Positions 7,440 through 58,440 of a stretch of DNA of 64,000 nucleotides are shown here, in pieces (within the stretch, counting starts at the first letter, position 1; each line of letters begins with the position of its first letter). Location of the stretch: positions 682,001-746,000 of the forward strand of contig AP026539.1 in assembly GCA_026075535.2 (NCBI GenBank). The letters run 5' to 3'. The notes under the pieces are model-generated. The model was not told the DNA's origin. It was given only the letters and a program-made list of their open reading frames with translations, and ran no database searches. This DNA comes from Tricholoma matsutake. Lineage: Eukaryota > Basidiomycota > Agaricomycetes > Agaricales > Tricholomataceae. A program made the position numbers and the translations under genes.

Positions 7440-7930
7440 GTTAGTAATATTATACACCATTCTGACCGGATTCTTTGGCTGAGTTTGAAAATCTCCCCTG
7501 CATAGTGATGTGATTGGCTATATATAGAACATAGTGATGTTATATACCATTCTGACTGGATTTTTGAGCTGAGTTTAGAAATCACCTTTGCATAGTCATG
7601 TGACCTACCATATATGGAACATAGTGATGCTATATACCATTCTCACCAGAATTTTGAGCCAAGTTTAGAAATCACCCTTGTGTAGTCATGTGACCTACCA
7701 TATATATAGTGATGGCATATACTATCATTGTGTGAAATATGGCACCATCAAGATATCCTTTCTATATTTTTCTCATTAGTATTATACACACTCTCTGAAT
7801 GATTAACTCAAGTTTGAAAATGACTTTGACAAGATAAATTAGGCAGATTTATACAAGACATCTGGGATCATATTAGAGTATGTTGAGGGAGAATCCAAAG
7901 CAGAGTACTTAATGAAATCTAACTATTTAC
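7440..7930. repeat. AT-rich untranslated stretch with three imperfect direct repeats
   Basis: Three copies of a block of about 85 bp built on TATACCATTCTGACCGG..GAGTTTAGAAATCACC..CATAGTCATGTGACCTACC start near 7450, 7545 and 7630. They lie between the left TIR and the stop codon of the transposase gene. No coding potential is seen. Confidence 0.6.
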
Positions 7931-12493: not shown

Positions 12494-14342
12494 ATGGGTA
12501 CCGATACTGTTGATCCCCTGTCCATTTCCCCTATCAAACTTTCTGTGCAATATACCGGGGAGAAGCTCGACAAACTTAAATCAAATTACAAAGAATGGTG
12601 CCAGGAGATTATTATTGCTTTATCATTAAACGGCCTTTATGAATATGTTATGGGCAGAATACCTGAGCCCACTTCTACCGAACTCTGAGCGCTTGCCAAC
12701 TGGAAGGCGAATTCCTGCCTCGCATATGCGTTTATTGCATCCAGCATCTCTCCGTCTGAGCGTAAATTCCTGGACATTAAAGTAGGCCCTGATGTGAACT
12801 GGAAAATTCTCCAGGACCGTCACCAGAAGGAAGGCCCCATTCGGCAGGTCCAGCTCTTACAACAAGTGCTTTCCATCCAGTGTACGAAGGACACACCACT
12901 CCCCGAGACAGCAGAAAAGATTTGTGCGTTAATTGAACATGCTTTTGCCATGGGTGATATACAGGCCGATCTTCTTTGTTGCATCGCTCTCCTTAATTCC
13001 CTTAGTGATAATTTTCCACATGCTCGCTCCATTATTTCACGAGATATTGCCGCTTCTTCCCTCTCAGCTCCATATGGCTCGAAAGATATCAAATTATTTC
13101 TGGAGAACAAACAATCATTACTTGAGAACGATCAGCGTGGTGATTCCAAAAACCATGCCGCTTTTACCGCACAGTCCAAATCTTCCAAGCTCCCTAACGC
13201 ACCAATCTTCACCAACACTAACTGTGGGAAATCTGGCCACACAAAACAATATTGCATTAAACCTGGCGGTGGTATGGCTGGGAAATCACTCGAGGAGTCG
13301 ATCGCTGCTCGCAGGGCTGCCCGTGAGAAGAAATCCTTACTGGCTGGCACTACAAAGGTTCCTATTACCGTGAAGGACATTAATGGTCATGCCTTCACTG
13401 TCATGGTCAACCCTGATATTCCTACCCCACCTGCACCAGAATTTGCCAGGCTTGCTCACGACCCGCTGCCTTTAGACCCTTCAGACATGCTGGAATATGA
13501 AGGATGGGTTGCTGTGGAGGAGGAGCTCACCACTACAGTGGACTGGAAACACCATACATCACCCATCCCTGACAATGCGCTCACCGTGGAACCCCTTTCA
13601 CAGACTTGTCGCTCATGCATTACCTTAGATGCTCTCCCCTTTATTATTGACTCTGGGGCTACAGTACATATATCCCCTGACAAGTCTGACTTCCTCACCT
13701 TACGACCCATTTCACCTCGCTCTGTCAGAGGTGTCGGTGGTTCATCTATTGATGCTGTCGGTGTTGGTGATATACAGCTAAGAATAGCCCAGGGCACATC
13801 AATTATTTTATGTAATGCCCTCTACATCCCAAAATCGGCAGTTCGGCAGATCTCAGTGGGCATGCTGGCCAACGACTCTAACGCTGTTGCACATTTTGAC
13901 AGTAACACATGCTGGTTCACTGATAAATCCTGCGGGGCCTTCATAGCTCATGGATTGCGCATATCTAGAAAGCTTTACATGCTCAACATTGCATTGGCCC
14001 AGGCTGATCACGTGCTAACGGTTCACAAGACCCCTACTCTCGAGACATGGCATTGTCGTCTGGGTCACACAAATTACCAGGCACTCTGGAATATGGCCAA
14101 GAAGGGCACTTTCACTGGTGCACCACTCGCTTCATTGTAAAAATTACCTAAATGTGATTCCTGTGTCCTTGGCAAGCAGACCAAGTCTCCAGTCCCCAAG
14201 AAATGTCAGGAGGGACCAGGCCATAAGGTGACAAGGAAGCTGGAAAAGGTGTGGGTGGATCTATCTGGACCACATTCAGTAACGTCGCATGCGGGGAACC
14301 GTTATATCATGGATATAGTAGACGACTACACCTCATTCCCAT
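12494..14342 (+). pseudogene. Copia gag-protease-integrase N-terminus
   Basis: The frame starts at ATG 12494 (MGTDTVDPLSISPIKL). Gag contains a Cys-His knuckle near 13216-13263 (NCGKSGHTKQYC). The protease active site is FIIDSGATVHISP near 13640. The GAG-pre-integrase segment is TLETWHCRLGHTNYQAL (about 14035), followed by CDSCVLGKQ (about 14154), giving the HHCC zinc site. The integrase core begins VWVDLSGPHS and reaches DIVDDYTSFP, where gypsy B interrupts it. TGA at 12686 replaces Arg CGA, and TAA at 14138 replaces Gln CAA. The remaining domains resume at 27436. Confidence 0.9.
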
Positions 14343-14796
14343 TGTTACGATTTGTTATCTGGACCCGCAAGACTGGGCACTTCATTTTTCTCGTTCCATT
14401 TGACTCACTTCTGACAGGAGATGCTTTGACGCATGGTGACTCCATGCACCCAAACCCACCCCCCATGCATGCCGTGATACAACAGCCCTTTGACATGAGG
14501 TCCATGATGTCAGACACTCACGATCGACATGCTGCACCGCAGCATGCCCTTGACACCGGATCCTTGACATCAGATCCATGACATCGGACGCCTCATGCCA
14601 GGCATGAGGCTGTTCTCTTATTGTTCTCCAATATGCTGTGCTGCAGCACTCCTTGACATTGGACTCCTCATGCGAGGCATGAGGCCTACTGTTTCTATTG
14701 ATCTTTCTATTTATACTTGATAACAATCTTACATTCTGATTGGACAATAGACATCCTCGAACTGTATATAAGCTGTAGTAATACTGTCTGTATTCC

Positions 14797-14808
14797 TCAG
14801 CTTGACCT
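14797..14808 (+). promoter_or_regulatory. Predicted gypsy B RNA 5' end, complementary to the primer site
   Basis: TCAGCTTGACCT begins 32 bp after the start of TATATAA (14765). Its reverse complement AGGTCAAGCTGA is found at 15104-15115, three bases after the LTR end. This is the geometry of Tf1-type self-priming, where the RNA 5' end folds back as primer. Twelve of twelve bases match. Confidence 0.65.
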
Positions 14809-14846
14809 AATTCAATCAATGGTCTTAGACTCAACCAGAACACTCG

Positions 14847-15057
14847 ACAGCTAAGGAAGCCCCTTAGTTGTGATACACTCAAACTCGACAGTCAGAAAGC
14901 CTCTGACTGTGATACACGAACTGACGGTGCACTCAGAAAGCCTCTGAGTATGGACAGCCGTGACGACTTGAGGAAGTACCCAAGTGAAGGCAGGAAGCCC
15001 GATACACTAGGAAAGTCTCCTAGTGCGATACAAGACAGTTGGAAAGCCTCCAACTGT
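14847..15057 (+). ncRNA. Array of six stem-loops with AAGYC-type loops in the gypsy B LTR
   Basis: Hairpins: H1 14847-14871 (10 bp with one G-T pair), H2 14888-14910 (9 bp), H3 14931-14949 (7 bp), H4 14966-14985 (5+2 bp, one bulge), H5 15005-15025 (8 bp), H6 15035-15057 (9 bp). The loops are AAGCC, AAGCC, AAGCC, AAGTA, AAGTC, AAGCC. Stem sequences differ but pair, and several linkers contain GATACA. The 3' LTR keeps all six (27181-27391), and in H1 it has an A-T pair where the 5' LTR has G-T. The array lies downstream of the predicted start, so it would be in the RNA leader. No known motif is recognised. Confidence 0.75.
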
Positions 15058-15103
15058 AACACACAAAGCCAAGGCTGAGTCAAGGACCTATAGTCTTAAC
15101 AAA

Positions 15104-15115
15104 AGGTCAAGCTGA
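15104..15115 (+). other. Gypsy B primer-binding site, self-complementary
   Basis: AGGTCAAGCTGA follows the LTR end by two bases (15102-15103) and is the exact reverse complement of 14797-14808. No TGG start, as expected for a tRNA 3'-end primer site, is present. Confidence 0.6.
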
Positions 15116-15118
15116 TCT

Positions 15119-16234
15119 ATGAAGTCCACCTACCTAGGTGCAGACACAACGTCTTTCAGACAAAGCCCAGACAGACCTCCAACCAGAGCATCATCATCAG
15201 GAAGAACCCCATGGTATAGATACCAGGGTCGACTAGTACAATACTCGGAACCAGCACAGAAGTGGTTCTCAAAGAGAACCAGTGACGAAGAACCCCGATA
15301 CCTCGACAAAGAGGATTTTAGATCCTTTGATAAAGAAGAAACCCCAGAACGAGACCCATTCTCCTTATCCGACGACAACGCCAACATGTCTACCAAACCC
15401 ACCGCATCGACCAGGGAGATTAGAATCCGAACCCCCTTCAACTTCACAGGGGACCGAACAAGAACTGCAAAGTTCTTACAAGAAGTGAAACTCTATTTGA
15501 GAGTGAACCACGGAATCTACGACACAGATAAGAAGATCATCTTTGCATTGTCCTTCATGAATGGAGGAACGGCTGCACCCTGGGCACAGACTTGGGCAGA
15601 AAGGGAAGACCTAGGAACCTGGTCTACCTTTGAAGCAATGCTCAGGACAGCATTCACACCAATCGATGAAGCTGGCAGGGCCAGAACCGAGATGAAGACA
15701 TTGAAGCAGGGACAGGACCTGGAGGACTACATTGCGCAGTTCCGAATCCTGCGAGAGAAGGCGGGAATCAACAATGACACCGCCCTCATTGAACTCTTCA
15801 TGGATGGGTTAAACCCCAAGCTCCTCGAAAGAGTTTTCAACATGGAAACAATCCCTACGACCTTGGAAGGAATGATCAACGCCGCCTCCAAGTATGATGG
15901 ACAGTGGAGGAGAGCAAAAGCCATAACAGGGAGGCTGCAGGAGGCTTTTACGAGGAAGCTCCCGGCCTCTAACGCAAAGGAAACCCCACTCGAGATCAAC
16001 CACCTCTCCTACCAGGAGAGGATCAAACACATGAAGAAAGGATTGTGCTTTGTGTGCCACCAGCCTGGACACAGAGCAACCGAACACAAGAAAGGGGAAA
16101 AGAGGACCGAGGACCGGCCATCCCCAAAGAATAAAGGAAAAGAAGCCTACTCTAGGATCTGAGCGATCGTAGGAGAACTAGACGAAGAAGAAAAGAAAGA
16201 AGCTCTCGCCGCAATTGAGGATGAGGGTTTTTAA
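15119..16234 (+). pseudogene. Gypsy B gag
   Basis: Starts at ATG 15119, just after the primer site, and would end at TAA 16232. It is broken by TGA at 16160 where CGA (Arg) is expected, after SRI. The capsid region is TAKFLQEVKLYLRVN..FALSFMNGGTAAPWAQTW..LEDYIAQFRILREKAG, typical of Ty3/gypsy gag. The knuckle CFVCHQPGHRATEH (about 16049) has His in place of the last Cys. Gag would form the capsid and bind the RNA. Confidence 0.88.
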
Positions 16235-18401
16235 AGAGGTGGCCTGCCTCGATGCCAGGTACCACCGAACTTTCCGTCTGCTCTGTACTACTGGCCACTT
16301 TGACAAATCAATCTATGTGTTTAGATATCAAAGTGGCAGGGACAGGCAGAGGGAAAGACATCGAAACCGAAGCCCTACTCGACTCAGGAGTGGGAGGGAT
16401 ATTCATGAGCCATGAATTCACAGAAAGCAGTGGATTCAAATTGTGCCCCCTGGAAAGGGTAATCAGAGTCAAGAACATGGATGGAACCCCAAACAAGAGA
16501 GGGGAAATCTCCCACTATGCCAGAGGACTCTTAACGATCAACGGAAGGACTTTCCCAACAACCTTCCTGATTGCAGGACTGGGAAAGGAATCAATCATCC
16601 TAGGTCTGCCATGGCTCAGAAGAATCAACCCAGTAATCGACTGGAAGATCAGAACCTTCCAGTTCAGGACAAAGGACGAGACTTACCCAGAGTTCTCATA
16701 TGGGAAAGGAAGAACCCTTATCGGAAGGGTGCAAACCGAGAAACCCAACGAAGGGTACCTATCATGGTGCTAGAGGGGAACTGAAAAGAAGAAGGACCCC
16801 TTTGACATGACAAAAGAAGAGCGACAGGCATGGTGCCAAAAGATTGTCGCCAAAGAACAAGAAAAGCTCGCCCTCAAGAAGAAGACTGCCGAGGAAGAAC
16901 GAGCATGATGGAAAAAGGTAACCACCAGAGAACTGGAGAGACTGGCCACCAGAAAAGAAGAAGAACGACTGGCACTGGCCCAAATAGTCACAAAAGCAAG
17001 GGAAAAGATAGCCCTGAAAGGCAAGAAAGAAGAGCTGGCGAAAGAAGAATACTGAGAGCTATGCTGAAGAGTTGTTGCCAAGGCAAAACTGATGGGAGGA
17101 GTCCTCCACAAAGAACCAAGAAGAAGCAAGACACCCAAAGCGACGATCGAAGAAATCGACAACAAAGAGATCACAATTACGACTCTTCAAGATGCAGAGC
17201 CCATTGGGCCACAGGACAAAGAAGACACTGGGAAGGAAAACCCAGCACTGGCAAACCACAAACAGGCAATGGAACAGGCAACAGAACAGGCAATGGAATG
17301 GACACCCAAACAAGAAATTGCAGACGATGAACTACTGATCACCTACATTCGAGGAGAACCCATCATTGGAATATTTGAACCAGCTAAGACGCCACTGATG
17401 GAGGAGTATGCCAAGCCAAAATATGGATACTCCCAGAAGACAAAGACAATCTCTCAAATCGTGAAGGCAAAAGGATCACCGCGATATGCATACGGACAGA
17501 ATATCTGGATTAGGGCAAAAACATTGGTCTCACAACACCTGACACATAAGAAGGAAGGAGACCCCGAACAGAAGACCCTAGACGAACTACTCCCAGAACA
17601 GTATAAGGAGTACCGACGGATATTCGAAAAGGAAGCATCGGAAAGATTCCCAGAATCAAGATCCTGGGATCATGCGATCGAACTTAAACCAGATTTTATG
17701 GCAAAGGACTGCAGGGTTTACCCGTTATCGCTGGCAGAACAGAGGAAACTCGATGAGTTTCTCGACGAAAGCCTGAAGAAAGGATACATCTGACCATCGA
17801 AATCACCCATGGCGTCACCATTCTTCTTCGTTGCGAAGAAGGACTCGGATGCGCTACGACCTTGCCAAGATTACAGGTACTTGAACAATGGAACAATCAA
17901 GAACACCTACCTGCTGCCGCTGGTAGGAGACCTGTTGGACAAACTAAGAGGGGCAAAATGGTTTATGAAATTGGACATCCAATGGGGATATCACAACGTC
18001 AGAATCAAAGATGGAGATCAATGGAAGGCAGCCTTCAAGACAAATCGGGGGCTGTTCGAACCAACAGTGATGTTCTTTGGATTATGCAACTCACCGGCGA
18101 CCTTCCAGGCAATGATGAACAAGATATTCTGTGACATGATCGGGGAAGGATGGCTCGTGATCTACATGGATGACATCCTGATATTCTCCAAGGATCAGAA
18201 CAAACACCAGGAAAGGACAAAGAGGGTACTGCAAAGACTGGCAGAAAATGATTTATACCTGAAGCTGGAGAAATGCAAGTTTGACGTCCACGAGGTGGAA
18301 TTCTTGGGTCTGATCATCCAACCCAACGAAATTGCCATGGACAACACGAAACTGGCAGGTATACAGGATTGGCCAACCCCGACAAACGTAAAGGCAGTCA
18401 G
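16228..18401 (+). pseudogene. Gypsy B pol, first part: protease and reverse transcriptase
   Basis: Pol lies in the -1 frame relative to gag, entered at the T5 run 16228-16232 that overlaps the gag stop. The protease has LLDSGVGGIFMS (near 16377; Val replaces the usual Ala), then ILGLPWLRRINPVIDW. A long charged linker (16800-17100) precedes [47 protein letters not shown] (18163-18189, intact). Stops: TGA at 16906, 17053 and 17791 all replace Arg CGA, and TAG at 16771 is of another kind. The frame is cut at 18401 by gypsy C and resumes at 24449. Confidence 0.9.
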
Positions 18402-18827
18402 TATAAGGGCAACCTGAGCCTCTAGCAAAGGGAAATCCGAAGTTAAAATTATACTACATAATACAGGTATTGGGGACACACCTAGCAAAGGGAAATCCGA
18501 AGAGAAAACTCTAAGGATCCCCTTGCTGATGCCCAGTATATGTGAAGACGACAAAAATCAAATATAACCTAAAAATAGAAAAAGGCGGAGATAGGCGGAT
18601 CAAGGCCGCCGAATGACATCATACCAAGGGGTATGTGTCGGAAGGGGTACTCCGCCTCTAAATATAAAAGTGTCAACATATACAAACATGATAGCAAGGG
18701 AAAATTAGTAATAAAATCCGGAAAAATCATAGAAAATGAAGAATAGAAGGAAATGAGGTGGGGAAAAATATGGGACGAACATAAAAAATGGGAAAAACAC
18801 ACAGGGCACCCCCCTAGTCCCCTTACA
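18402..18827 (-). repeat. Gypsy C 3' LTR
   Basis: On the minus strand it starts TGTAAGGGGACTAGG and ends CCCTTATA, so the 3' terminus is TA and not the usual CA. It contains two direct copies of CTAGCAAAGGGAAATCCGAA about 61 bp apart (near 18422 and 18483) and short hairpins (CATACC..GGTATG; GGCGG..CCGCC). The copy at 24023-24448 is almost identical. Confidence 0.93.
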
Positions 18828-18838
18828 TCACCCCCTCT

Positions 18839-21800
18839 CTAAGATGCATCGCCCCGATGCATTCGAAATTGTATACGACCAAAGTCCGTGACTTGAATGC
18901 GATGCGGTGCAGCAGTGTGCCGTCGGTGGAATTCCTTGATTAACCGAGGGGCATTTATGTCAGACTCTTCGACCCATGAGTTCTCCTCATACCCATAACC
19001 CTTCCAATGTACCAAATACTGGAGTTTTCCTTGACGCAAACGACTGTCCAAGATTGACTCGACTTCATATTGGGGTTCTCCCTCGATCACTGTAGGTGGT
19101 GGTGGTGGGTGTGAATGGCATCCCAGGAACGGATCTGGGGGAGCTGGAAGCAATTTGACGACATGGAAGACGGGATGGAGTCTGGACATGGAGGCTGGGA
19201 GGCGTAGACGATAGGCATGTGTTCCAACGCACTTGACAATGGGGAAAGGTCCCAAGAAGCAATGAGCGAGTTTCTTGGATGGACGTGTAGTGGAGATGTC
19301 ACTGGAGTCGAGATAAACTCGATCACCAACCTTGTACTGAGGGGTTGGGGAGTGGCGCTGGTTGTAAAATCGTGCCATGTCATCCTTCGCCTTTGCTAAG
19401 GCTGCCCTTGCCTCCTCCAAGCTATCCCTCATGCGTTCTGTGAACTCATTCACTGTCTCGATGTGTGAGGGAGTTTGGCGAGGTTCAAATCCCATGCGTG
19501 GATGTCGTCCAGTGTCTAAGAGGAAAGGGGTCTGTTGAGTGGAAGCATGGACATGGTTGTTGTACCCGAACTCGGCCAAAGGAAGGAGATCATCCCAATC
19601 GTCCTGGCATTCATTGACAAAGAGGCGGATGTACTGCTCCAGTTCCTGGTTGACTCGCTCCATCTGGCCATCAGTTTGTGGGTGATAAGCAGTTGAAGCA
19701 AGGAGTTTGATCCCCAGGAGTTGGTACAGCTCACGAGTGAACTCTGCCATGAACTGAGGGCCACGATCCGAGAGGAAGGCACCAGGAAGTCCATGTAATT
19801 TCCACACGTGGTGGAGGTAGAGTCGAGTGGCACCTAGGGCACTGACAGTGGTGTGAGTGGGAATGAAGTGAGCGCGTTTTCCCACTGAGTCAACTGTGCA
19901 CATCACCGCATCAAACCCGTTTGACTCTGGCAATTCCACCACAAAGTCGACGCTGACAACATCCCAATGACTCTCTGGAACAGGAAGAGGGTGTAGCTCA
20001 CCAATAGGCTTGCAACGAGGGACCTTGGTGCGTAAGCAAAGGTCACAAGTGCGACAATACTGACCAATGAGCCGTGACATTTGTGGCCACCAATAGTTCC
20101 GTGAGGTGAGCTCCAAGGTCTTCCAGCGTCTGGGGTGGCCAGCAATCTGTGAGTCATGGTGTTGGGATATGATGCGCCGGCGAAGGTCTGGGTCATTGGG
20201 AACATAGATGCGATCCCTGAAATACAACAAGTCCTCCTTTTCAGCCCACTCTGCCGCATGTAAGGAAAGGGTCGATCCCTTCCTCAGTTCTTTAACAGCT
20301 CGGGCGACAACATCCTCATGTAAACCACTACGGTTTGCGCGACGAATGTCACGTAGAATGTCCCACTCCTCGCCCTGGGGTGCGATGCCTTCCAGTGCCC
20401 GAATGGTGAACAGGTCTGGCTGCAACAGCACAATGTTTTGGTTGTCACCGCTGCCATCCCCATGGTCTGCACGTTGGGATAGGGCATCGGTCTTCCCCAT
20501 GCTGCGACCCAGACAGTGGTGCAAGGAGAAGTCGAATCTAGATAGATACAGGGACCAACGAGCTTGACGACGGTTCAATTTCTTGGCCATCATGAAGTAC
20601 TCGAGGTTCTTGTGATCCGTCCAAATTTCCACCTTGTGTTGGGCACCCTCGAGGAAGTGTCGCCACTCCTCAAGCGCACGCATTATCACCAACATCTCCT
20701 TGTCATGGATCTCGTAGTTTCTCTCTACAGCACTAAGGCTTTTGGAGTAGAACGCCACAGGATGCCACTTCTGGTCCTCTGGAGACTGCTGAGACAACAC
20801 AGCACCCGTCGCAAAGTCAGAACTGTCGGCTTCTACACGAAAAGGATGCAAATCATCAGCAAAGGTAAGGATTGGAGCGGAAGTGACCATCTCCTTAAGC
20901 TTTTCGAACGCCTCCTGTTGTGCATTATCCCACCTCCATGCCTCCTTTCCTGTCAAGTCGAACAGCGGTCATGCATGATGTGAGAAATCCTTGATAAAAC
21001 GCTGATAAAAATTGATGAAGCCCAGGAAAGACTGCACCTCCTTCTTGTTTGTGGGCGTTGGCCAAGCTGTGACCCCGTTTACCTTAATAGGATCCATCTC
21101 CACTTGACCCTCCAAGATAATCAGGCCGAGGTACTCGATCTTGGTCCTTTCGAACTCGCATTTGTCCTGACGAAGGTAGAGTTTGTACCGTCGAAGTCGC
21201 TCTAGGACGAGGCGCGTGATGCGACGGTGCTCTTCAACCGTGCGAGTGAAGATAAGGATGTCGTCGAGATAGATGCAGACAACGCCTTCGAGGATGAGGT
21301 CATGGAAGATGTCGTTCATCATGGTCTGAAAGGTGGCAGGGCTATTAGTAAGGCCAAAGAACATGACAAGCAGTTCAAAAAGACCACGGTTGGTACGAAA
21401 GGCTGCCTTCCACTCATCTCCCTCCTTTATCCTCACATTATTATAGCCCCAACGGACATCGAGCTTGGTGAAGTATTGGGCTCCACGGAGCTGGTTTACG
21501 AGTTCAGAGATGAGGGGTAGTGGGTAGCGATTTTTGACCGTGATGTTGTTGAGTCTTCTGTAGTCTTGAACCGGTCAAAGTGAGCCATCCTTCTTCTTGA
21601 CAAAGAAAAAGGGAGAGGCCATGGGTGACTTCGATGGTCGAATACGTCCAGAGGCCAGGTGCTCATCAATGAACTGGTCAAGCTGCCATTGTTCTTCCGG
21701 AGAGAGAGGATAGACCTTGCAGGATGAAGGGGTTGTGCCGGGGGTGAGTTCGATCATGTGATCCCATGGCTTACGTGCAGGAAGAGAGTCGAATGACTCC

Positions 21801-22741
21801 TTGGAGAACACGTCTTCAAACTCATGGAGATGAGGGAGTAAGGAGTTAGTAGAGGATTTAGCAGCGTTGTTTTTGTGGAAGGCCTCGGCAAGGCATTGGG
21901 ATATGTTTGATGTGGCACACACCTCATGCGATGAGCGAATCGCAGTGTAGAAGATCCGATCACCCTCCTCCACTTCCTCTGGGTCCTCATCATTATCATC
22001 TGAGTCCGGCATTAGATCAGGAACCCCTTCCAATTCCACTTCAGGTATAGGCAGGGGTCCAGCACGACACTTCTGAGTTCGTCGTATTGCCGCCTTCTGT
22101 CCATGACGTTCTTGCCTGGCTTCTGTGAAACATGTCCGACAGCAGGATGGACATCGGCTCATGGTAACCTCCCCGGTGCACCAGTCGACCTCTGGGTTAT
22201 GGTCTCAAAGCCATGGATATCCCAAAATCGCCTTTTGCTTTCCTAATTGAGTGACAGCAAAAAGGGCACGCTCACTATGATCTTTGTAATGGAGAACCAG
22301 GTCTGCAACCTCTCGGATGGCACCAGCTTCATTTGGGGATCCATCCACGTTATATACAGGTATCGGACGTGAGAGTGAGCGAGTATTTAGACGATGTTGT
22401 TGTACCAGATGGGAATTGATGAAGAGACCAGTCGCACCAGAGTCCAGGAGCGCAGAAACACCGAGTATCTGTCCAGTGTCGGTCGTCTGCAGTTCAATGG
22501 CTAGGTTTAAGGAATGTGCAGAGGGAGTGGATGCCACAATATACTTGCGTGGTAGTTTACGCTCCCATGATTTAATTTTGGGACGTGGAGTAGAAGGAGA
22601 GATGGGGAGAGCAGGTACGTCTTTAGCCAACTTCGAAGGGTCAGAGAGGGGAGCAGTCACAGAAATGGATTCATTCTCCAGGGATTCAACTGACAAGACT
22701 TCAAAGCGGTTATGGACAGGCAGTGAGGGCGTACAATTCAC
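18839..22741 (-). pseudogene. Gypsy C pol: protease, RT, RNase H, integrase, chromodomain
   Basis: One long minus-strand frame split only by three TGA codons (at 22205, 21575 and 20969), each at an expected Arg CGA. Protease: LLDSGATGLFINSHLV (about 22425). [23 protein letters not shown] (catalytic GACGAC at plus-strand 21260-21265, intact). RNase H: EADSSDFATGAVL and ALSQRADH. Integrase: HHCC with CRTCDLCLRTK, then [43 protein letters not shown]. Chromodomain: YLVHWKGYGYEENSWVEE, ending at 18839. Compared with the usual length nothing is missing. Gag overlaps the start in another frame (-1). Confidence 0.93.
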
Positions 22742-23856
22742 TCGCTGCGAATAGGAAAATCCTGCTCCTCTACAACTTCCAGCTTAACCTCCTCTGCAAC
22801 TTGATCCTTCGCTTCCTCAACATCTACAAGTGCCAACAGATCTTGCAGGAGTTCGTCTCGTCCCTCGGGGGTGAGCATGCAGATATCCTGACGATGGGGA
22901 CACGCTCCAGCCCTGTGTCCAGGTTCCCCACAATGGTAGCAGAGATCCAACTTACGTGCACGGCTGCGGGCTGCATCAACATCCATTGGTACTGGGACAT
23001 TGACGGCTGGTGTGGGAGTTTGACGAGCAGGAATGGGGTTAGGGCGGGGGAGGCTTCGATTGAAGGTGTAGGGTGTATGAGTGGTAGTTGGAGCACGGAA
23101 TGCAGCATTAAACGCTGCATTTGTGAGTCGGTTCTCGTCACAGAGTGAAGCAGCTTCATACCAAGCAAGGATATCATCGTCCACTGGGCGCCCTTCCAAC
23201 ATCTGTGCAATCTGGTCCTGAATTTCTTGGTTGAGCCCCCGTCGGAACTTCACCACCACTGGTAACCCACTCCCATACCCTGCCATGTCCACCAAATCCT
23301 TGAACTCATCGATATAGTCGTCCACAGATCGATGTCCCTGGTGGTAAGTGGATGACTCAAGTCGTGTCACTGCTCGGTGGCATTCATTGAGGGGGCAGAA
23401 GTGGCGTACGAACTCAGCTCGAAAGTCACCCCAAGTGGAGAAAGGTAGAGAACCGAGTTCTTTAGTTTGACGTAGGATACGGTCCACATAGAGATAGGTG
23501 CCTTCAGATTTCATGTATGTGAAGGCCCAATAAATTTTTGCAGCCTCATCAATGAATTGATGCGACTGGAGACTAATGTATAACTCACAGGAATTAAGGA
23601 ATGTACGTCCCTGCGCACGTGCACCATTAAATTCGGCGGGGGGGGACGGTTTGATCTGGGCACATTCCTTAGTGGACGCGTTTGGCAAAACGTCGTTGTT
23701 GGGTGCGCTTGGAGTCGTGAAGGGGGAACTATTAGTCGTAGGGTTAGCCTGGAGGGTCCTAACGAAGTTTTCAATCGTAGATTTAAGCGAGTCGATTTGC
23801 GCGTGCATTCCGGAAATGTCGCTTTCAAGCGCGTCGAAGCGTTCTGATGTGTCCAT
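22738..23856 (-). CDS. Gypsy C gag
   Basis: Intact 372-codon frame from ATG 23856 (MDTSERFDALESDISGMHAQ) to TGA 22738. An N-terminal helix (a possible coiled coil) is followed by a capsid-like segment (FLNSCELYISLQSHQF, TWGDFRAEFVRHFCP, RSVDDYIDEFKDLVDMAGYG) and a CCHC knuckle LCYHCGEPGHRAGACPHR (about 22960-22900). It would assemble the particle and package RNA. The stop overlaps the pol frame, so pol is probably made by -1 frameshifting. It is free of TGA decay, unlike pol. Confidence 0.9.
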   Translation of the reverse strand: MDTSERFDALESDISGMHAQIDSLKSTIENFVRTLQANPTTNSSPFTTPSAPNNDVLPNASTKECAQIKPSPPAEFNGARAQGRTFLNSCELYISLQSHQFIDEAAKIYWAFTYMKSEGTYLYVDRILRQTKELGSLPFSTWGDFRAEFVRHFCPLNECHRAVTRLESSTYHQGHRSVDDYIDEFKDLVDMAGYGSGLPVVVKFRRGLNQEIQDQIAQMLEGRPVDDDILAWYEAASLCDENRLTNAAFNAAFRAPTTTHTPYTFNRSLPRPNPIPARQTPTPAVNVPVPMDVDAARSRARKLDLCYHCGEPGHRAGACPHRQDICMLTPEGRDELLQDLLALVDVEEAKDQVAEEVKLEVVEEQDFPIRSE

Positions 23857-24010
23857 GTCGCTAGGGAGCGCGTTTGGCGAAAATGGCGGCGTGATAAAGG
23901 CGAGAGTATCTGGAACGGTGTGTAGGGACTCTGTGGAGCTTTGGGAAGCGTCGTCCAGTCCGTACCTGCCTATTTTGGGCAGCGCGTTCGCGATTTTCGG
24001 GCCTTAGGGG

Positions 24011-24020
24011 AGAGTTTTCT
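24011..24020 (-). other. Gypsy C primer-binding site, self-complementary
   Basis: On the minus strand AGAAAACTCT begins two bases after the LTR end. Its complement AGAGTTTTCT lies inside the 5' LTR at 24124-24133, 29 bp downstream of CATATAC (24157-24163). As in gypsy B, the predicted RNA start pairs with the primer site. Confidence 0.55.
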
Positions 24021-24022
24021 AC

Positions 24023-24448
24023 TATAAGGGCAACCTGAGCCTCTAGCAAAGGGAAATCCGAAGTTAAAATTATACTACATAATACAGGTATTGGGGACAC
24101 ACCTAGCAAAGGGAAATCCGAAGAGAAAACTCTAAGGATCCCCTTGCTGATGCCCAGTATATGTGAAGACGACAAAAATCAAATATAACCTAAAAATAGA
24201 AAAAGGCGGAGATAGGCGGATCAAGGCCGCCGAATGACATCATACCAAGGGGTATGTGTCGGAAGGGGTACTCCGCCTCTAAATATAAAAGTGTCAACAT
24301 ATACAAACATGATAGCAAGGGAAAATTAGTAATAAAATCCGGAAAAATCATAGAAAATGAAGAATAGAAGGAAATGAGGTGGGGAAAAATATGGGACGAA
24401 CATAAAAAATAGGAAAAACACACAGGGCACCCCCCTAGTCCCCTTACA
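24023..24448 (-). repeat. Gypsy C 5' LTR
   Basis: Identical to 18402-18827 except one visible G/A difference. On the minus strand a TATA-like CATATAC (24157-24163) precedes the predicted start at 24133. Confidence 0.93.
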
Positions 24449-26542
24449 GTCAGATCCTTCCTGGGATTTGGTAACTTCTACAGGAAGTTTATTGGACATT
24501 TTGCGGAGACAAGCAGACTGCTTAATGAACTGACAAAGAAGGACAAGACATTCAACTGGACAATGGAATGCGAACAGGCTTTTCAAATGCTGAAAAAGAA
24601 ATTCGCAGAAGCCCCAGTACTGCTGATGCCTGACCCGACAAAGCCATTCACGATCGAATCAGATGCCTCAAAACATGCGACAGGAGGAGTGCTGAGACAA
24701 AGGGACACGAATGGGGACTGGCACCCATGCGGATACATATCGCATGCACTAACACCAATGGAACAGAACTACAAGATTTATGACAGGGAGCTACTAGCGA
24801 TAATACAATTGCTAGAGACCTGGAGACACTACCTGATGGGTTCAGAACACCCAGTGGTAATCCTGTTGGATCACAAGAACTTGACATACTTCCAAACAGG
24901 ACAGAAACTGAACAGGCGACAGGCAAGATGGAGCTTATTCCTATCGGAATTTGACTTGCAGATCATCCATGTGCCTGGATCCCAGATGGTGCAGAGCAAT
25001 GTGTTGTCATGGAGAGCAGATCACGTACCGGAAGAGGACAACAATAATGAAGATGTCACAATGCTGCCGGAAACAGTATTTGTGAAATTCATTGACACCG
25101 AAATGCATGACTTACTCGCAGGGAGTATCATGAAAGATGATCTGGTAAAGAGCGCAATCGAGGCGTTAAAGACCAAAGGAACACCACCAATAAAGTCGGC
25201 ATTGGAAGACTGGAAGATAGAAGATGGCCTTCTATTCTTCTGAGCCAGGTGCTACGTCCTGGACAATGGAGAACTATGGAAGAAGCTGGTGCAAAAATAC
25301 CATGAAGGAGTAACCAGCGGACACCCGGGACAATGGCAAATGACCAAAATGATCAGGAGAGACTACTGGTGGCTGGGGATGATGACGTACATCAAGAACT
25401 ACATTGCTGGATGTGCAGTATGCCAGCAGATGAAGGTCAACATGCACCCAACGAACCCCCCGCTACAACCGATCAAATCCAAAGTGACAAGACCATTCGC
25501 GATGGTGATGACAGATTTCATAACCGACCTACCAGAGTCCAATGGTTATGATGCACTCATGGTCGTGGTAGACCATGGGCTTACGAAGGGGGTAATTTTT
25601 ATCCCTTGCAGGAAAACTGTGGATGCATTGGGAGTGGCCACCCTCTATCTAGACAATGTCTACAAACGATTTGGCCTCCTGGACAAGATTATCTCTGACA
25701 GAGATCCCAGATTTGCCTCGCAGCTGTTCCAGGAACTAGGAAGGCTGCTCAGAATCAAGCTGGCAATGAGCACAGTGTACCACCCCCAGACCGATGGGGA
25801 GACAGAACGGGTGAACCAGGAAGTGGAAGTATACTTATGGATCTTCTGCTCGAACAACCAGGAGAATTGGAAACACCTCCTCCCAACCGTGGAGTTCACG
25901 CACAACCAGAGAACCCACTCCATACAGAAGAACTCTCCATTCTACCTCATGATGGGCTATGAGCCCAAGGCGATCCCACTCCCCTACCTGAAGACAAACA
26001 TACCGGCCATAGAAAAATGAATAGTTGCACTGCAACGGGCCCGAGAGAAAGCAAAGGCAACTCATGAGTTAGCCAGACAGATGATGGCGGAAAGAACGAC
26101 AAGGCACTTCACCCCATTCAAAGAAGGAGACAGAGTGTGGCTAGAGGCAAAGAACCTCAGGACGACGCACCAAACGAAGAAGCTCGCACCGAAAAGAGAA
26201 GGACCGTTCTCTATCGAGAAGGTCCTGAGCCCACCCTCCTACCAACTGAAGTTGCCAGAACAGTGGAAGATACACCCGGTGCTCCATGCGGCGCTCCTTT
26301 CCCCATATAAAGAAACCAAAACTCATGGACCGAACTTCCCAGAACCACCGCCTGATCTGATAGAAGGCGAATCGGAATATGAAGTGGAAGCAATCATCGG
26401 ACATAAGAAGAAAGGAAGGACCATGCACTTCTTAGTGAAGTGGGTCGGATACCTGACCTCGGAGAACTCATGGGAGCCCAAGGGAAACCTGAAACATGCC
26501 AAGAAGATCCTGAACGCATATAAACAGCGACGACAGCTGTAG
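24449..26542 (+). pseudogene. Gypsy B pol, second part: RNase H, integrase, chromodomain
   Basis: The frame resumes directly as SFLGFGNFYRKF. RNase H: TIESDASKHATGGVL, YDRELLAIIQ, DHKNLTYF. Integrase: GHPGQWQMTKMIRRDYWW with CAVCQQMK, TDFITDLPESNGYDALM, ISDRDPRFASQLF, YHPQTDGETERVNQEVE, so the DDE residues are present. A chromodomain (YEVEAIIGHKKKGRTMHFLV, KWVGYLTSENSWEPKGN) closes the protein at 26542. TGA at 25241 and 26018 replace CGA (Arg). A chromodomain of this type is expected to steer integration to modified histones. Confidence 0.92.
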
Positions 26543-27155: not shown

Positions 27156-27435
27156 TGTTACAATTTGTTATCCGGACCCGACAACTAAGGAAGCCCCTTA
27201 GTTGTGATACACTCAAACTCGACAGTCAGAAAGCCTCTGACTGTGATACATGAACCGACGGTGCACTCAGAAAGCCTCTGAGTATGGACAGCCGTGACGA
27301 CTTGAGGAAGTACCCAAGTGAAGGCAGGAAGCCCGATACACTAGGAAAGTCTCCTAGTGCGATACAAGACAGTTGGAAAGCCTCCAACTGTAACACACAA
27401 AGCCAAGGCTGAGTCAAGGACCTATAGTCTTAACA
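27156..27435 (+). repeat. Gypsy B 3' LTR with a 479-bp internal deletion
   Basis: Starts TGTTACAATTTGTTATCC and ends TAGTCTTAACA. After GGACCCG it jumps to ACAACTAAGG, lacking the equivalent of 14368-14846. The six-hairpin array is retained at 27181-27391. TATA box and predicted start are gone. Confidence 0.92.
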
Positions 27436-30113
27436 CCCATGCATGGTCTATACCATTGCAAAATAAAGATGATGCTTTCACAGAACTTAAAGCTTGGGAA
27501 CTTGCCTGGGAGAACAAAACCGGCCTCAAAGTCGGGACCTATATCACTGATAATGGTGAACTTAAATCGCACGAAATGAAGGAGTGGTTGAAGACTCATG
27601 GTATTGATCAGCATTTCACGGCACCTCACACCTTGGCTCACATAGGCTGTGTTGAGTGAATGCATAGGATGCTTATGGCTAAAGCACGCACTATGCAAAT
27701 ATATGCTGGTCTGCCAGCTTATTTGTGGGACAAGTTCTACCTCACAGCTGCCCACTTGCATGCCAAGACTATGACCCGTTCACTAGCAAGCCTAACGCCT
27801 TGGGAATTATGGTACGAGAGAAAACCTGATTATTCTTATCTTCGCGAGATAGGTTGCAGGGTGTTTGTGCTTATCCCAGGAAAGGATAATCCCAAGATAC
27901 TTGAATGATCCATCAAATGCGTCTTGATAGGCTACAAGCCAAAATCAAAAGCATATCGCTGTTATAACCACGCAACGCATAAGGTTCATATTTCATATCA
28001 TGTCCGCTTTCTTGAGAGCCATGAAGGCTATTCACCACCTTCAATCGATGAATTAGGGGAGGATGATAATATTGGGTCCAGTGGTAGTCTACCCACATTC
28101 CTTGGTCCTATTTTACAGCAAGACAATGATGTTGAGTCTTCTCATGAATTCACTCTCCCTGATGCACCCTCTAATAGTCTCACGACACCGCCACTGCCAC
28201 CCATCGCCCAGCCTATTCGTTGATCTACCCGTGTTCTAATACCCACAGACAAAAACCCCAATGGTGGCCCTGCTATTACTAGAACAGCGGCTGCAGTGCA
28301 AGAATCCTTGGAGAGCGCTGCACGTGTAAAGGAGGCACGGCAGGAGCGTCAGGCTGCTATTGTGGCTGCACGATTGGATCACATTACGGATCAATCCTCT
28401 GATCATGATTGTGATGTCATGGAAGAACTCCAACAATCATTTCATAATCTTGATTTGGGCGATCAAGCGCATCAATTTCAGGCCCTGATCTCGGAAATGG
28501 GAGATTTTGATCCGGAGTCACTTCAATTTGAGGATGAGCTGAAAACATGGGATGAAGCCAGAAGATCTGTTGATGCAACGCAATGGGAGCATGGATATCT
28601 GGAGGAATTGAACTCATTGAAAGAAATGGGGGTATACAAACTAATACCTAGGTCAGAGGTTCCACTAGGGAAACATATTAGGCATGGGAGACCGATTTTC
28701 CACATTAAGCGCAAGAAGGCGGGTACCCCTATTAGATGGAAGGTATGCCTAGTCTTCAGAGGAAATGAACAAATTTATGGCAGGGACTACACCAAAACTA
28801 CCTCACTGACTGCGCGCATGGAATCATGGCAGATTCTCTTACACATAGCTGCCTCACTTGGCTGGGATGCACAACAGGTCGACATAAAGACAGCCTTTCT
28901 TTACAGCTTACTTCCGGACAATGAAATTCAATATATGCAGCAGCCTGCTGGTTTTGAGGAGCAGGGCAAGGAGGACTGGGTTTGGCAACTACAGCACACC
29001 TTATATGGTATGAAACAGAGTGGGCGCATTTGGAATCAGACCCTTAACATGCAGATGCTAAATTGGGGATTCAACTGCCTCTTGTGCAAGTCCTGTATCT
29101 ATTACCATAAAACTGACACTGGTACAATTATTGCTGCTGTCCATGTTGATGACTATTTAACCATCGCCGACTCCAAGGACAAAAATGAGCGCTTCAAGAA
29201 CCAGATGCGCGAAGTATGGACTATCTCCGAATTGGGGATGGCACATTTTATTATGGGTATTGCTGTCTCATGGGACTGAGACATGTGTACTGTTGCACTT
29301 TCACAGACCGCTCTTATTGACAAAAGAGTGGAACAGTTTGGTCAGAAAGAAGCACACCCTGTTTCTGCCCCATTGGACCCTGGTTCAAAACTACGGTGCT
29401 CCAATCTGCAATGTATATCCCAGGATGCCAGGAATGCCCTGGCCAAGCTTCCCTACCACTCTCTTGTCGGATGCTTATTGTACTTGGCAATATCTATGCA
29501 TCCCGACATTTCTTATGCAGTACAACAGCTCTCTCAATACCTTGATTCATACTCCTTAGAACACTGGAGTGCTGCTATACGGCTAGTACATTATCTAAAG
29601 GGAACTAGGGACTTGAAGCTTTATCTGGGCAGAGAGAACCCCATTCTCCTGCACGCCTATAGTGACTCTGACTCGGCTAATTGCCATGACACTTGTCGCA
29701 GCGTTGGGGGATACATGTGCTCTCTTGGCTCAGGCGCAGTGTCTTGGGCAGCATGTAAACAGAAGGTAGTGGCAGCTTCCGCCTGTGAAGCAGAATACAT
29801 AGTGGCATTTGAGACCGCAAAGGAATGTGTGAGGTTGCATATGCTACTATGCACTATTGATTTTCATCAAAACTTGCCTACTACCATCCTCTGCTACAAC
29901 AACGCTATGAAGACATTATCCGAGGACCCATTACTTCATTCACGTGTTAAGCACATCGACATCAAATATCATTTCCTACGTGAGCGTGTACAGTTGGGCG
30001 ACCTACCTATCACTTACATCCACACCCATGACAATGTAGCCGACATGTTTACTAAAGCCCTGGAACCTAAACATTTTGCTGTCCTTTGTGCATCTCTTGG
30101 CCTTCGTTAGTGG
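27436..30113 (+). pseudogene. Copia integrase C-terminus, RT and RNase H
   Basis: Resumes as HAWSIPLQNKDDAFTELKAW. Integrase: YITDNGELKSHEM and a VE followed by a stop where VERMHR is expected. RT: QVDIKTAFLYSLLPDNEIQY, TLYGMKQSGRIWNQ, VHVDDYLTIAD (catalytic GATGAC 29148-29153, intact). RNase H: YSDSDSANCHDTCRSVGGYM, SCAEAEYIV-like ASACEAEYIV, and HDNVADMFTKAL at the end. TGA at 27657, 27906, 28221 and 29277 all replace CGA. It is followed by a purine-rich GAGGAGGAGTG tract before the LTR. Confidence 0.92.
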
Positions 30114-49085: not shown

Positions 49086-49091
49086 AGGTGG

Positions 49092-49660
49092 GGGCCCATC
49101 CATATCAGATGCTGACTATGTCAGCACAGCACGTCCCCATGAAGAGGAGACACCAATGTGGTGGTTGGTTGGGAGAACTATGTACTAATGTCACACCCAT
49201 GCAACCATGACAGCCGCACTCAATGTCTTATGGTTACATGATGGACATGGGCCCATCCATGTCAGATGCCAACTACATCAGCAGAGCACCTCCCCATGAT
49301 GAGGAGATGCTGAGATGGTTGGTTGGGGAGAACTACATAAGCTATTTAAATGTTCAAACCACCCACTCAGCCATAATGGCTGAGCTTAACATCTCATGTT
49401 TTCACAGAGACATGGGCCCATCCACACTGGATGCTGACTATGTCAGCACAACACCTCCCCATAACAAGGAGATGCCAACATGGTTGGTTGGGGAGAAATA
49501 CATAAACTATTTGAGTATTTAAACTGCCCACTCAGCCATAATGGCTGAGCTTAACATCTCATGTTGCCACAGAGATGTGGGCCCATCCACATTGGATGCT
49601 GATTACGTCAGCACAACACTTCCCCATAACAAGGAGACACCAATGTGGTGGTGGGTGAAG
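49092..49660 (+). repeat. 165-bp tandem repeat with an open frame
   Basis: About 3.5 copies are marked by GGGCCCATCC at about 49092, 49249, 49414 and 49579 (spacing 157, 165, 165). The unit is 55 codons and two units read through in one plus-strand frame as MAELNISCFHRDMGPSTLDA, DYVSTTPPHNKEMPTWLVGE, KYINYLS. Translation would give a 55-residue repeat protein, but an ordinary minisatellite is also possible. Confidence 0.65.
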
Positions 49661-49719
49661 AGAGGGAAAAAAAATCAACTATGCATCACCACAAGCAGCT
49701 ACATTGGGGTTCAATCATT

Positions 49720-57399: not shown

Positions 57400-58440
57400 G
57401 GCATATCGGTGGGTTTGTTTATTTACCCTCACTCAAAAATTACACAATTAAGATTTATTACCTACATCCCTCACATTAGATGTGAGGGATACAATACAAT
57501 TAAGTACATAAAAAACACCCTCCCTCACACAAGGTGCAAGGGGGAGTCCTACAAATATTTATTTACATACAAGACTGACCCCCTGCATTGAACGCGAGGG
57601 GAGGGCAACAATTATAAATAAAAAACCCAATTATAAACAAACACTTTAATGTTATTTATTAACTATTTGAAAGACTTTCAACATACAAAAAACAAGGATG
57701 CCCCCACAACAAGGGACATTTTATTGGTAGTATTAAATACAAAAAAAGTTGCCCCCCTGCCAAAGAGGGGGGCAGTAGACTATAGAATAAAATAAAATAA
57801 CCCACCATCTTGCTAGCATGTGAGATGGCAGGGGCTGTACCCACAAACCACCCTACAAGCAGGTGCTTGTAGGCATGGGGTGGGTGCATTCATTGTTGGC
57901 CTCTCATGTGGCCCCCTCTTGTCCCCCCACTGTCCCTGTTGGTCTGTATGCATCCCCCTTCCTTGTCGTTGTTCCACCCACCATCCACCCCATGAGCAGT
58001 TGCTCATGAGGCTGGAGGTGGGTGGTGTGTCATTGTTGTCTCCTATCCCTGTGCCTGGGCATTGTTCCACCCATGTTCCACCCCACAAGCAGTTGCTTGT
58101 CAGGCTGGGGGTGGGTGGCTTGTCATCGTTCGTCGCTGTCATCCCCCATTTGGATTTCTGTCTTTTTTTTTTTGGGGGGGGGGGGGGAGGGGTTTGGGCG
58201 TGTCAGTGTGATGTGGCACATGTACAGGGGTTGGTGGGTGCTTACTAGGCAGGTATCCCCCTTCTGGGGTCTCCTGGCACCCTCCTAGCCTGTGTCGACA
58301 GCCTCACATCCTGTTTGAACAGGGAGGAGGGGGATTGGGTGGGTGGGTGTGGGTGTGGGTTGCACATTTTTTGTCATGGCAGGTCGTTCCCAGTAGTATA
58401 CAACCTAAAAGGCAATAAAATACAATTAGTTCATTGATAA
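57400..58440. repeat. T2 interior: minisatellite and poly-G, shared with 848-1804
   Basis: Contains pyrimidine/purine tracts, palindromic-core repeats at 57855, 57995 and 58088, a G-run near 58165, and the block homologous to the first kilobase of the window. Nothing coding. Confidence 0.65.

Follow-up and report, generated by a model that had tools for sequence, protein, structure and literature searches.

We suggest that a row of hairpins in the leader of a Tricholoma matsutake retrotransposon, set between a built-in primer and its pairing site, is a docking array that aids the packaging or the copying of the element's RNA. All six hairpins were confirmed and far exceed what chance would produce. 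The array would form the central part of a folded domain at the 5' end of the RNA of a Tf1-like, self-primed chromovirus. There the initial 12 nt of the transcript would base-pair with the primer-binding site (PBS), and the hairpins would occupy the interval, which is closed off by a second long-range helix. The fixed five-base loops (AAGNN, with a purine-pyrimidine closing pair) may be multivalent docking sites for a protein, the likeliest being the element's own Gag, acting through its CCHH zinc knuckle. A structured self-priming domain with Gag-docked loops is our best explanation of the whole, put forward tentatively.

To our knowledge, little is known about how the 5' end is held at the PBS and how the RNA is marked for packaging in self-primed retrotransposons outside fission yeast, and the array bears on both points. 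As a modular repeated signal with many natural variants in one genome, it would allow loop, stem and copy number to be separated.

The leader and its predicted fold

The window, the whole stretch of 64,000 nt that was analysed (G000:C2:682001-746000), belongs to a genome of 161.04 Mb in 13 contigs, which was searched for further copies. The host element is a chromodomain Ty3/gypsy retrotransposon (family B), itself inserted in a Copia element (Table 1). Its Ty3 capsid, protease, reverse transcriptase (RT), RNase H, integrase zinc-binding domain, Tf2-1-like SH3 and chromodomain lie above the Pfam cut-off (chromodomain PF00385 and PF24626 both pass in pol), and the integrase core scores under it. 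The coding regions of this copy are interrupted by stops. Stops within gag matches are nearly all TGA (TAG or TAA in 6 of 117 matches), as CpG decay of CGA codons would give.

Table 1. Features of the family-B element and its leader (positions in the window)
Feature	Position	Strand	Basis or remark
5' LTR (TGTTACGA...TCTTAACA)	14343..15101	+	sequence reading; element extent in copies
target-site duplication CCCAT	14338-14342 and 27436-27440		sequence reading
TATA box TATATAAG	14765..14772	+	32 nt before predicted RNA start
predicted RNA 5' end and self-primer TCAGCTTGACCT	14797..14808	+	exact reverse complement of 15104-15115
long-range closing helix, 5' strand	14821..14836	+	fold
hairpin H1, 10 bp, loop AAGCC	14847..14871	+	repeat search, fold
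hairpin H2, 9 bp, loop AAGCC	14888..14910	+	repeat search, fold
hairpin H3, 7 bp, loop AAGCC	14931..14949	+	repeat search, fold
hairpin H4, 7 bp and one bulged A, loop AAGTA	14966..14985	+	fold
degenerate seventh unit, AAGCC (14995-14999) without surrounding stem	14989..14999	+	fold
hairpin H5, 8 bp, loop AAGTC	15005..15025	+	repeat search, fold
hairpin H6, 9 bp, loop AAGCC	15035..15057	+	repeat search, fold
long-range closing helix, 3' strand	15073..15088	+	fold
PBS AGGTCAAGCTGA	15104..15115	+	two bases past LTR end
gag (Ty3 capsid domain, CCHH zinc knuckle CFVCHQPGHRATEH)	15386..16162	+	Pfam, translation
pol, first part (protease, RT), interrupted by stops	16225..18399	+	Pfam, translation
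nested gypsy element	18402-24448	minus	lies in pol of the family-B element; 426-bp LTRs, 99.8% alike
pol, second part (RNase H, integrase, Tf2-1-like SH3, chromodomain), interrupted by stops	24413..26542	+	Pfam
3' LTR, internally deleted, retains all six hairpins	27156..27435	+	comparison with 5' LTR

A preliminary description of this DNA had reported six hairpins with the loops AAGCC (four times), AAGTC and AAGTA, and all were found at the claimed positions with stems of 7-10 bp. It was also right about the second LTR, in which H1 has A-T for G-T. That LTR has lost 14368-14846 in 5'-LTR terms, a stretch that takes in the greater part of U3 together with the initial 50 nt of the predicted RNA. 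The end of the deletion coincides exactly with the first base of H1.

The comparison with shuffled sequence that had been proposed turned out in favour of the hairpins. Five uninterrupted stems of at least 7 bp (loops of 3-8 nt) were counted in 14797-15120, whereas 2000 dinucleotide shuffles of that region averaged 0.5 and never exceeded 4; for stems of at least 8 bp the count was four, as against 0.18. The fold of the whole leader gave z = -7.7, none of 100 shuffles being equally stable; the opposite strand gave z = -6.4, and 12 chosen leaders of both families described below gave z = -4.6 to -10.3 (40 shuffles each). In a 624-nt context the mean pair probability per window hairpin was 0.89-0.99, and five sampled pairs of the closing helix reached 0.90-1.0. 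The AAGNN loops were mostly unpaired (0.92-1.0), with exceptions of 0.40-0.72 in the degenerate unit, whose AAGCC is half unpaired (0.46), in two loops of the copy L106 and in one of L083. Some copies, for example L101, depart from the drawn fold.

The predicted first 12 bases of the RNA are the exact complement of the PBS just past the LTR, and the hairpin array occupies the 295-nt interval that separates the two. The array had been placed downstream of the predicted RNA start, in the leader, with which the TATA spacing and the self-priming match agree; to this must be added that it lies inside the LTR, between the putative self-primer and the PBS. Primer and PBS, complementary over 9-12 nt, gave the best long-range match in 35 of 40 further leaders; in the other five (L070, L071, L075, L084 and L101) this match was shorter, mutated or cut. 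It was present in 18 of 20 additional leaders. Mean primer-PBS pairing was 0.82-0.98 in the fold predictions of the 12 chosen leaders. The predicted RNA start follows TATA at 32-34 nt in each of the 38 leaders of family B that were examined, and at 33-34 nt in 28 of 29 from family C. Seven other LTR edges in the window were tested likewise: six, some with imprecise ends, gave complementary runs of 5-7 nt, and the nested element gave 10. The sequence after the LTR does not begin with TGG, a comparison confined to the window, which holds no tRNA. The 12-nt complementarity between RNA 5' end and PBS, in a layout as in Tf1, makes it very probable that the element is self-primed in the Tf1 manner.

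In the nested element, a ten-base stretch past the LTR (AGAAAACTCT) finds its complement within that element's LTR (AGAGTTTTCT), the two spanning 123 nt, which suggests that this element may be self-primed too. Its R-U5 carries a repeated TTCGGATTTCCCTTTGCTAG, and no AAGNN array was found there. The hairpins of family B could be a scaffold for reverse transcription only, compacting R-U5 and positioning primer and PBS for RT and RNase H, with loops read by RT or by nothing and kept constant by shared descent or fold stability. We consider this rather unlikely. The array does lie exactly between primer and PBS in the examined leaders of both families; Tf1 RNA structures allow primer-PBS pairing, according to the available part of PMC7175516, and a U5-IR-like stem-loop is required in Tf1, by the title of a paper. 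The nested element, however, has its 10-nt self-complementarity without such an array, so self-priming seems not to require one and the array should add something else; moreover, compaction alone leaves a constant loop on changing stems unexplained.

A second leader family, C, was found (L083, L098 and relatives) besides the window's family B. The family-B leader matches family-C leaders over 18-36 nt near H1 or not at all (E <= 1e-3). The family-C primer TAGTTTAGATCT and PBS AGATCTAAACTA are wholly different in sequence from those of B and complementary over 12 nt, and 342 of 348 primer-PBS cells in 29 leaders are Watson-Crick. The closing helix, AGCCTTAACT with GGTTGAGGCT, has another sequence than in B at the same place, with 226 of 290 cells Watson-Crick and 60 G-U, and the hairpin loops of this family are AAGCC, AAGGC and AAGCA. 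The predicted architecture is thus retained across B and C while most of the sequence differs. In one family-C branch (L131, L137-L147) the first hairpin is doubled, TACTAAGG-AATCC-CCTTAGTA standing next to CACTAAGG-AAGCC-CCTTAGTG, and the outermost pair of the doubled hairpin differs on both sides.

Loop constancy, unit number and covariation

The leaders compared were collected by DNA searches, each giving the best 40 of about 1,090-1,140 candidates, so that the copy number is a lower bound, and by Gag queries, for which part of the matching rows were fetched. Extra leaders were hand-picked upstream of gag matches (40 and 20 from Gag-query rows) and around DNA matches (9 of 40, 11 of 40 and 9 of 44 rows). 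The set of 137 sequences (136 loci and the 3' LTR) gave 136 leaders, 134 spanning the interval and 131 distinct; with 20 leaders added it came to 151 (111 of family B, 40 of family C). One 94-base match was dropped, L132 was cut and L128 fits neither family, while every other leader fetched with the Gag queries falls in B or C.

Minimum-free-energy folds of the 151 distinct leaders contained 787 hairpins of at least 6 bp. Five-base loops made up 724 of them and four-base loops 4; 690 of the 724 began with AAG and 486 were AAGCC, and the 724 loops sat on 82 distinct arm pairs, some differing in outer pairs alone. Since a choice based on folds favours paired arms, this count is evidence of loop constancy, not of pairing. 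Within the window, the stem arms of five hairpins (H4 being excluded because of its bulge) differ at 52 of 140 compared sites and their loops at 4 of 50. Across 102 family-B leaders the mean non-major fraction, gaps counted, was 0.034 for loops, 0.033 for the stems H2-H6 and 0.119 for linkers, which are thus about 3.5 times more variable than stems and loops. A fixed loop sequence on varying stems points to a loop reader, and some protein probably reads these loops.

The number six holds for the window copy, but not for the family: by folding, family-B leaders have 2-8 AA-loop hairpins, with six in 68 of 111, and family-C leaders have 0-4 (stems of at least 6 bp), with only two in 23 of 40, a low number that tells against our best explanation. 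Units are duplicated in L068, with seven hairpins, and in L069, with eight, the inserted units being about 37-40 nt long, and a shorter family-B branch (L148-L156) has two to four AAGNN hairpins. The common form of H2 is identical to H6, and two forms of H1, ACAACTAAGG and ACAGCTTAGG, are adjacent in L068.

The preliminary description held that both arms had changed together, pairing being kept while the sequence drifted. The comparison of units, the compensatory changes and the sister family support this, whereas a test of all column pairs and the neutral single changes do not. A branch-level test detected eight same-branch compensatory double changes in the hairpins, as against a null mean of 0.27 and a maximum of 3 in 300 simulations, none of which reached eight; with the partners slid by 2 or 3 columns there were zero same-branch pair-keeping double changes. 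Three of the eight lie in H5 (CACTAGGA to CAGTAAGA, arms matching) and are a copy of no other unit seen. The remaining five lie in H1, two of them being reversals, and since both H1 forms stand side by side in L068, compensation there may be mimicked by the loss of either unit. Part of the co-change may therefore be unit copying or unit loss.

An R-scape-like test of all column pairs in the 102 family-B leaders, the kind of covariation test that had been asked for, gave no pair with E <1; scores were no lower in unpaired columns than in paired ones, an effect of the many linked sites at which subfamilies differ. When the test was limited to the 20 structure pairs variable on both sides, five passed Bonferroni correction. 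Among 33 full-length leaders, 26 cells were changed on both sides as against 11.4 in shuffles (0 of 500 reached 26), while the six pairs with both-side changes were unexceptional (69 of 500 shuffles) and the 27 further pair types showed no excess (459 of 500). The proposed check on one-arm changes came out neutral: 28 single changes keep and 34 break pairs, a kept fraction of 0.45 against a null of 0.46, a ratio expected of dead copies. Mismatched cells in H2-H6 (G-U 47, A-C 36) showed little strand preference; in the closing helix G-U prevailed, 118 to 15, though at few positions.

We regard it as very likely that the fold is under selection at the RNA level in this family, with slightly reduced confidence, since unit turnover may account for some of the H1 evidence. 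A DNA-level or neutral cause, in which palindromic units spread by duplication or conversion and pairing is a by-product, seems to us quite improbable. Units do duplicate, H2 has the form of H6 and there are other palindromes in U3; but the double changes of H5 match no other unit seen, the linkers vary more than the stems and loops, and AAGNN hairpins are also kept in a family with about 50% Gag identity. Of the roles suggested in the preliminary description, those in packaging or with RT are plausible, and a single-strand DNA signal is supported by no result of the analysis.

In U3 (about 14560-14690 in the window, and in copies, for example L068:11-31 and 86-106) we observed repeated perfect palindromes, GCCTCATG-CWAGG-CATGAGGC, upstream of the TATA box. 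These palindromes, with TGACATCGGA-like repeats between them, are possible transcription factor sites.

Candidate readers of the loops

Gag is the first candidate for the loop reader, because it is encoded just downstream and because one unusual knuckle, CX2CX4HX4H, is common to B, C and most motif-bearing homologs. The usual form of the Gag zinc knuckle is CCHC. By eye, the CCHH form was counted in 36 of 38 motif matches in the fetched copies; of the 44 homologs 41 showed the motif, 37 of them as CCHH and two as CCHC. The CCHH form was also seen in four of four further gag copies (L157-L160). Gag of families B and C has the same CCHH knuckle. Four Gag copies are 49-52% identical to the window Gag; three have a family-C leader and the leader of the fourth was not fetched. 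The 44 Gag homologs include seven from Tricholoma matsutake, the best of which is 92% identical over 46% of the query; there are also Gag relatives at 38-60% identity. Zinc knuckles in general bind nucleic acids, and the case for Gag as the reader of the loop leans on this and on position. We place the probability that Gag is the loop-reading protein slightly below even.

The sequence itself supports the fold signal, a self-priming complementarity in both families, the constant loop, the compensatory changes and the variable unit number; the RNA start, primer use, protein binding, Gag as the partner and packaging are what we infer. In the proposed mechanism, a cut by the element's own RNase H past about nt 12 would free the primer, and RT would next copy U5 and R. 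The hairpins would hold the 295-nt interval in local folds, avoiding competition with primer-PBS pairing, and Gag binding would mark the full-length RNA for packaging, coupling packaging to the start of reverse transcription. In its most specific form, hairpin modules of variable number, with free stems and a fixed AAGNN loop, would be read multivalently by CCHH-knuckle Gag as a packaging and replication signal, which we consider possible but somewhat doubtful. If so, unit number would tune affinity, and nature would have its own equivalent of the engineered MS2 arrays. If the loops are Gag sites, the leader carries a natural RNA tag, multivalent and evolving through the duplication of units. 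The operator hairpins of phage coat proteins, from which MS2 arrays are made, are repeated one-loop multivalent protein sites; the present array likewise repeats hairpins sharing one loop, but is natural, lies within a retrotransposon and has a hypothetical binding partner.

The reader could instead be a host protein that binds RNA or double-stranded RNA (one of RNase III type, a translation repressor or a stability factor), which appears improbable. A fixed loop on free stems suits any loop-reading protein, although no candidate was identified and a site that survives many transpositions must benefit the element. Hairpin loops of the Rnt1 type (RNase III), AGNN, have four bases, as against five in 724 of the 787 loops here.

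Translation control, by shunting, internal initiation or a scanning block that keeps the RNA for packaging, would accord with the very stable fold that separates the RNA start from the gag ATG (15386). We give it little credence, as an upstream ATG at 14819 is present in only about 12 of 33 aligned copies. A shunt over the upstream ORF was rejected, the ATG not being conserved.

Loop-loop kissing or circularisation was also considered and rejected: the window leader is without GGCTT and the longest loop complement in the window U3 is 5 nt. With no complement of AAGCC there, loop-loop pairing within the window leader is disfavoured. One 7-nt loop complement, GAGGCTT, was found in the gag region searched. 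In 57 U3 regions of copies, GAGGCTT and GGTACTT occurred 0.44 and 0.49 times per U3, as against 0.02 and 0.04 in mononucleotide shuffles, and GAGACTT and GGGGCTT were not enriched. The two enriched words are the complements of the H2/H3/H6 and H4 loops plus two stem bases, and neither is present in the window U3. Pairing of 5' and 3' ends through loop complements is unsupported here, though conceivable.

Comparison with known leaders

Leaders of the Tf1/sushi chromoviruses (Tf1 of S. pombe, Tj1 of S. japonicus) resemble the present one in the complementarity of the RNA 5' end to the PBS and in a chromodomain integrase with Tf2-1-like SH3. In Tf1 the first 11 RNA bases pair with the PBS and RNase H cleavage after base 11 yields the primer, as given in the accessible portion of PMC7175516, and Tj1 is likewise self-primed, by the corresponding portion of PMC4600332. 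Unlike Tf1 and Tj1 as described in these portions, the present leader has a primer-PBS interval of 295 nt with a variable array of one-loop hairpins. The nested element of the same host also has a self-complementary PBS (10 nt), but a span of 123 nt without the AAGNN array. It is probably marY1-like, an identity resting on LTR length only, 426 bp being the length reported for marY1 in the available text of PMC10627285.

In MMTV, according to PMC8096270, both a purine loop and the PBS contribute to packaging by Gag. Like retroviral psi hairpins, the array places hairpins with exposed loops (here predicted) in the leader next to the PBS; it differs in its many near-identical loops on unrelated stems, in its varying number of units and in a CCHH instead of CCHC knuckle, and Gag binding is hypothetical here. 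Fungal GalEa elements, too, have a conserved hairpin by the LTR end, which in them takes the place of a tRNA-type PBS. Their Copia Conserved Hairpin Site is a single hairpin that directly follows the LTR; its loop is poorly conserved and has no U5 complement, according to the accessible text of PMC5445492, whereas here the loop is the conserved part.

Rfam 15 covariance models gave no match to 14343-15400 up to E = 1, and viral contigs searched with a piece of the RT gave no match. In the open literature on self-priming, leader hairpins, packaging signals and conserved loops in LTR retrotransposons, as far as its available text extends, no array of hairpins with a common loop was found. A Tf1-type self-priming leader, which ours appears to be, is a known kind; the modular common-loop array was not found described in the same sources.

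The window also contains tandem repeats at 995-1486 and 57963-58192, 7442-7725 and 49086-49663, whose periods are close to 163, 90 and 165 nt; the repeat of the first kind (995-1486) reappears 57 kb away, at 57963-58192.
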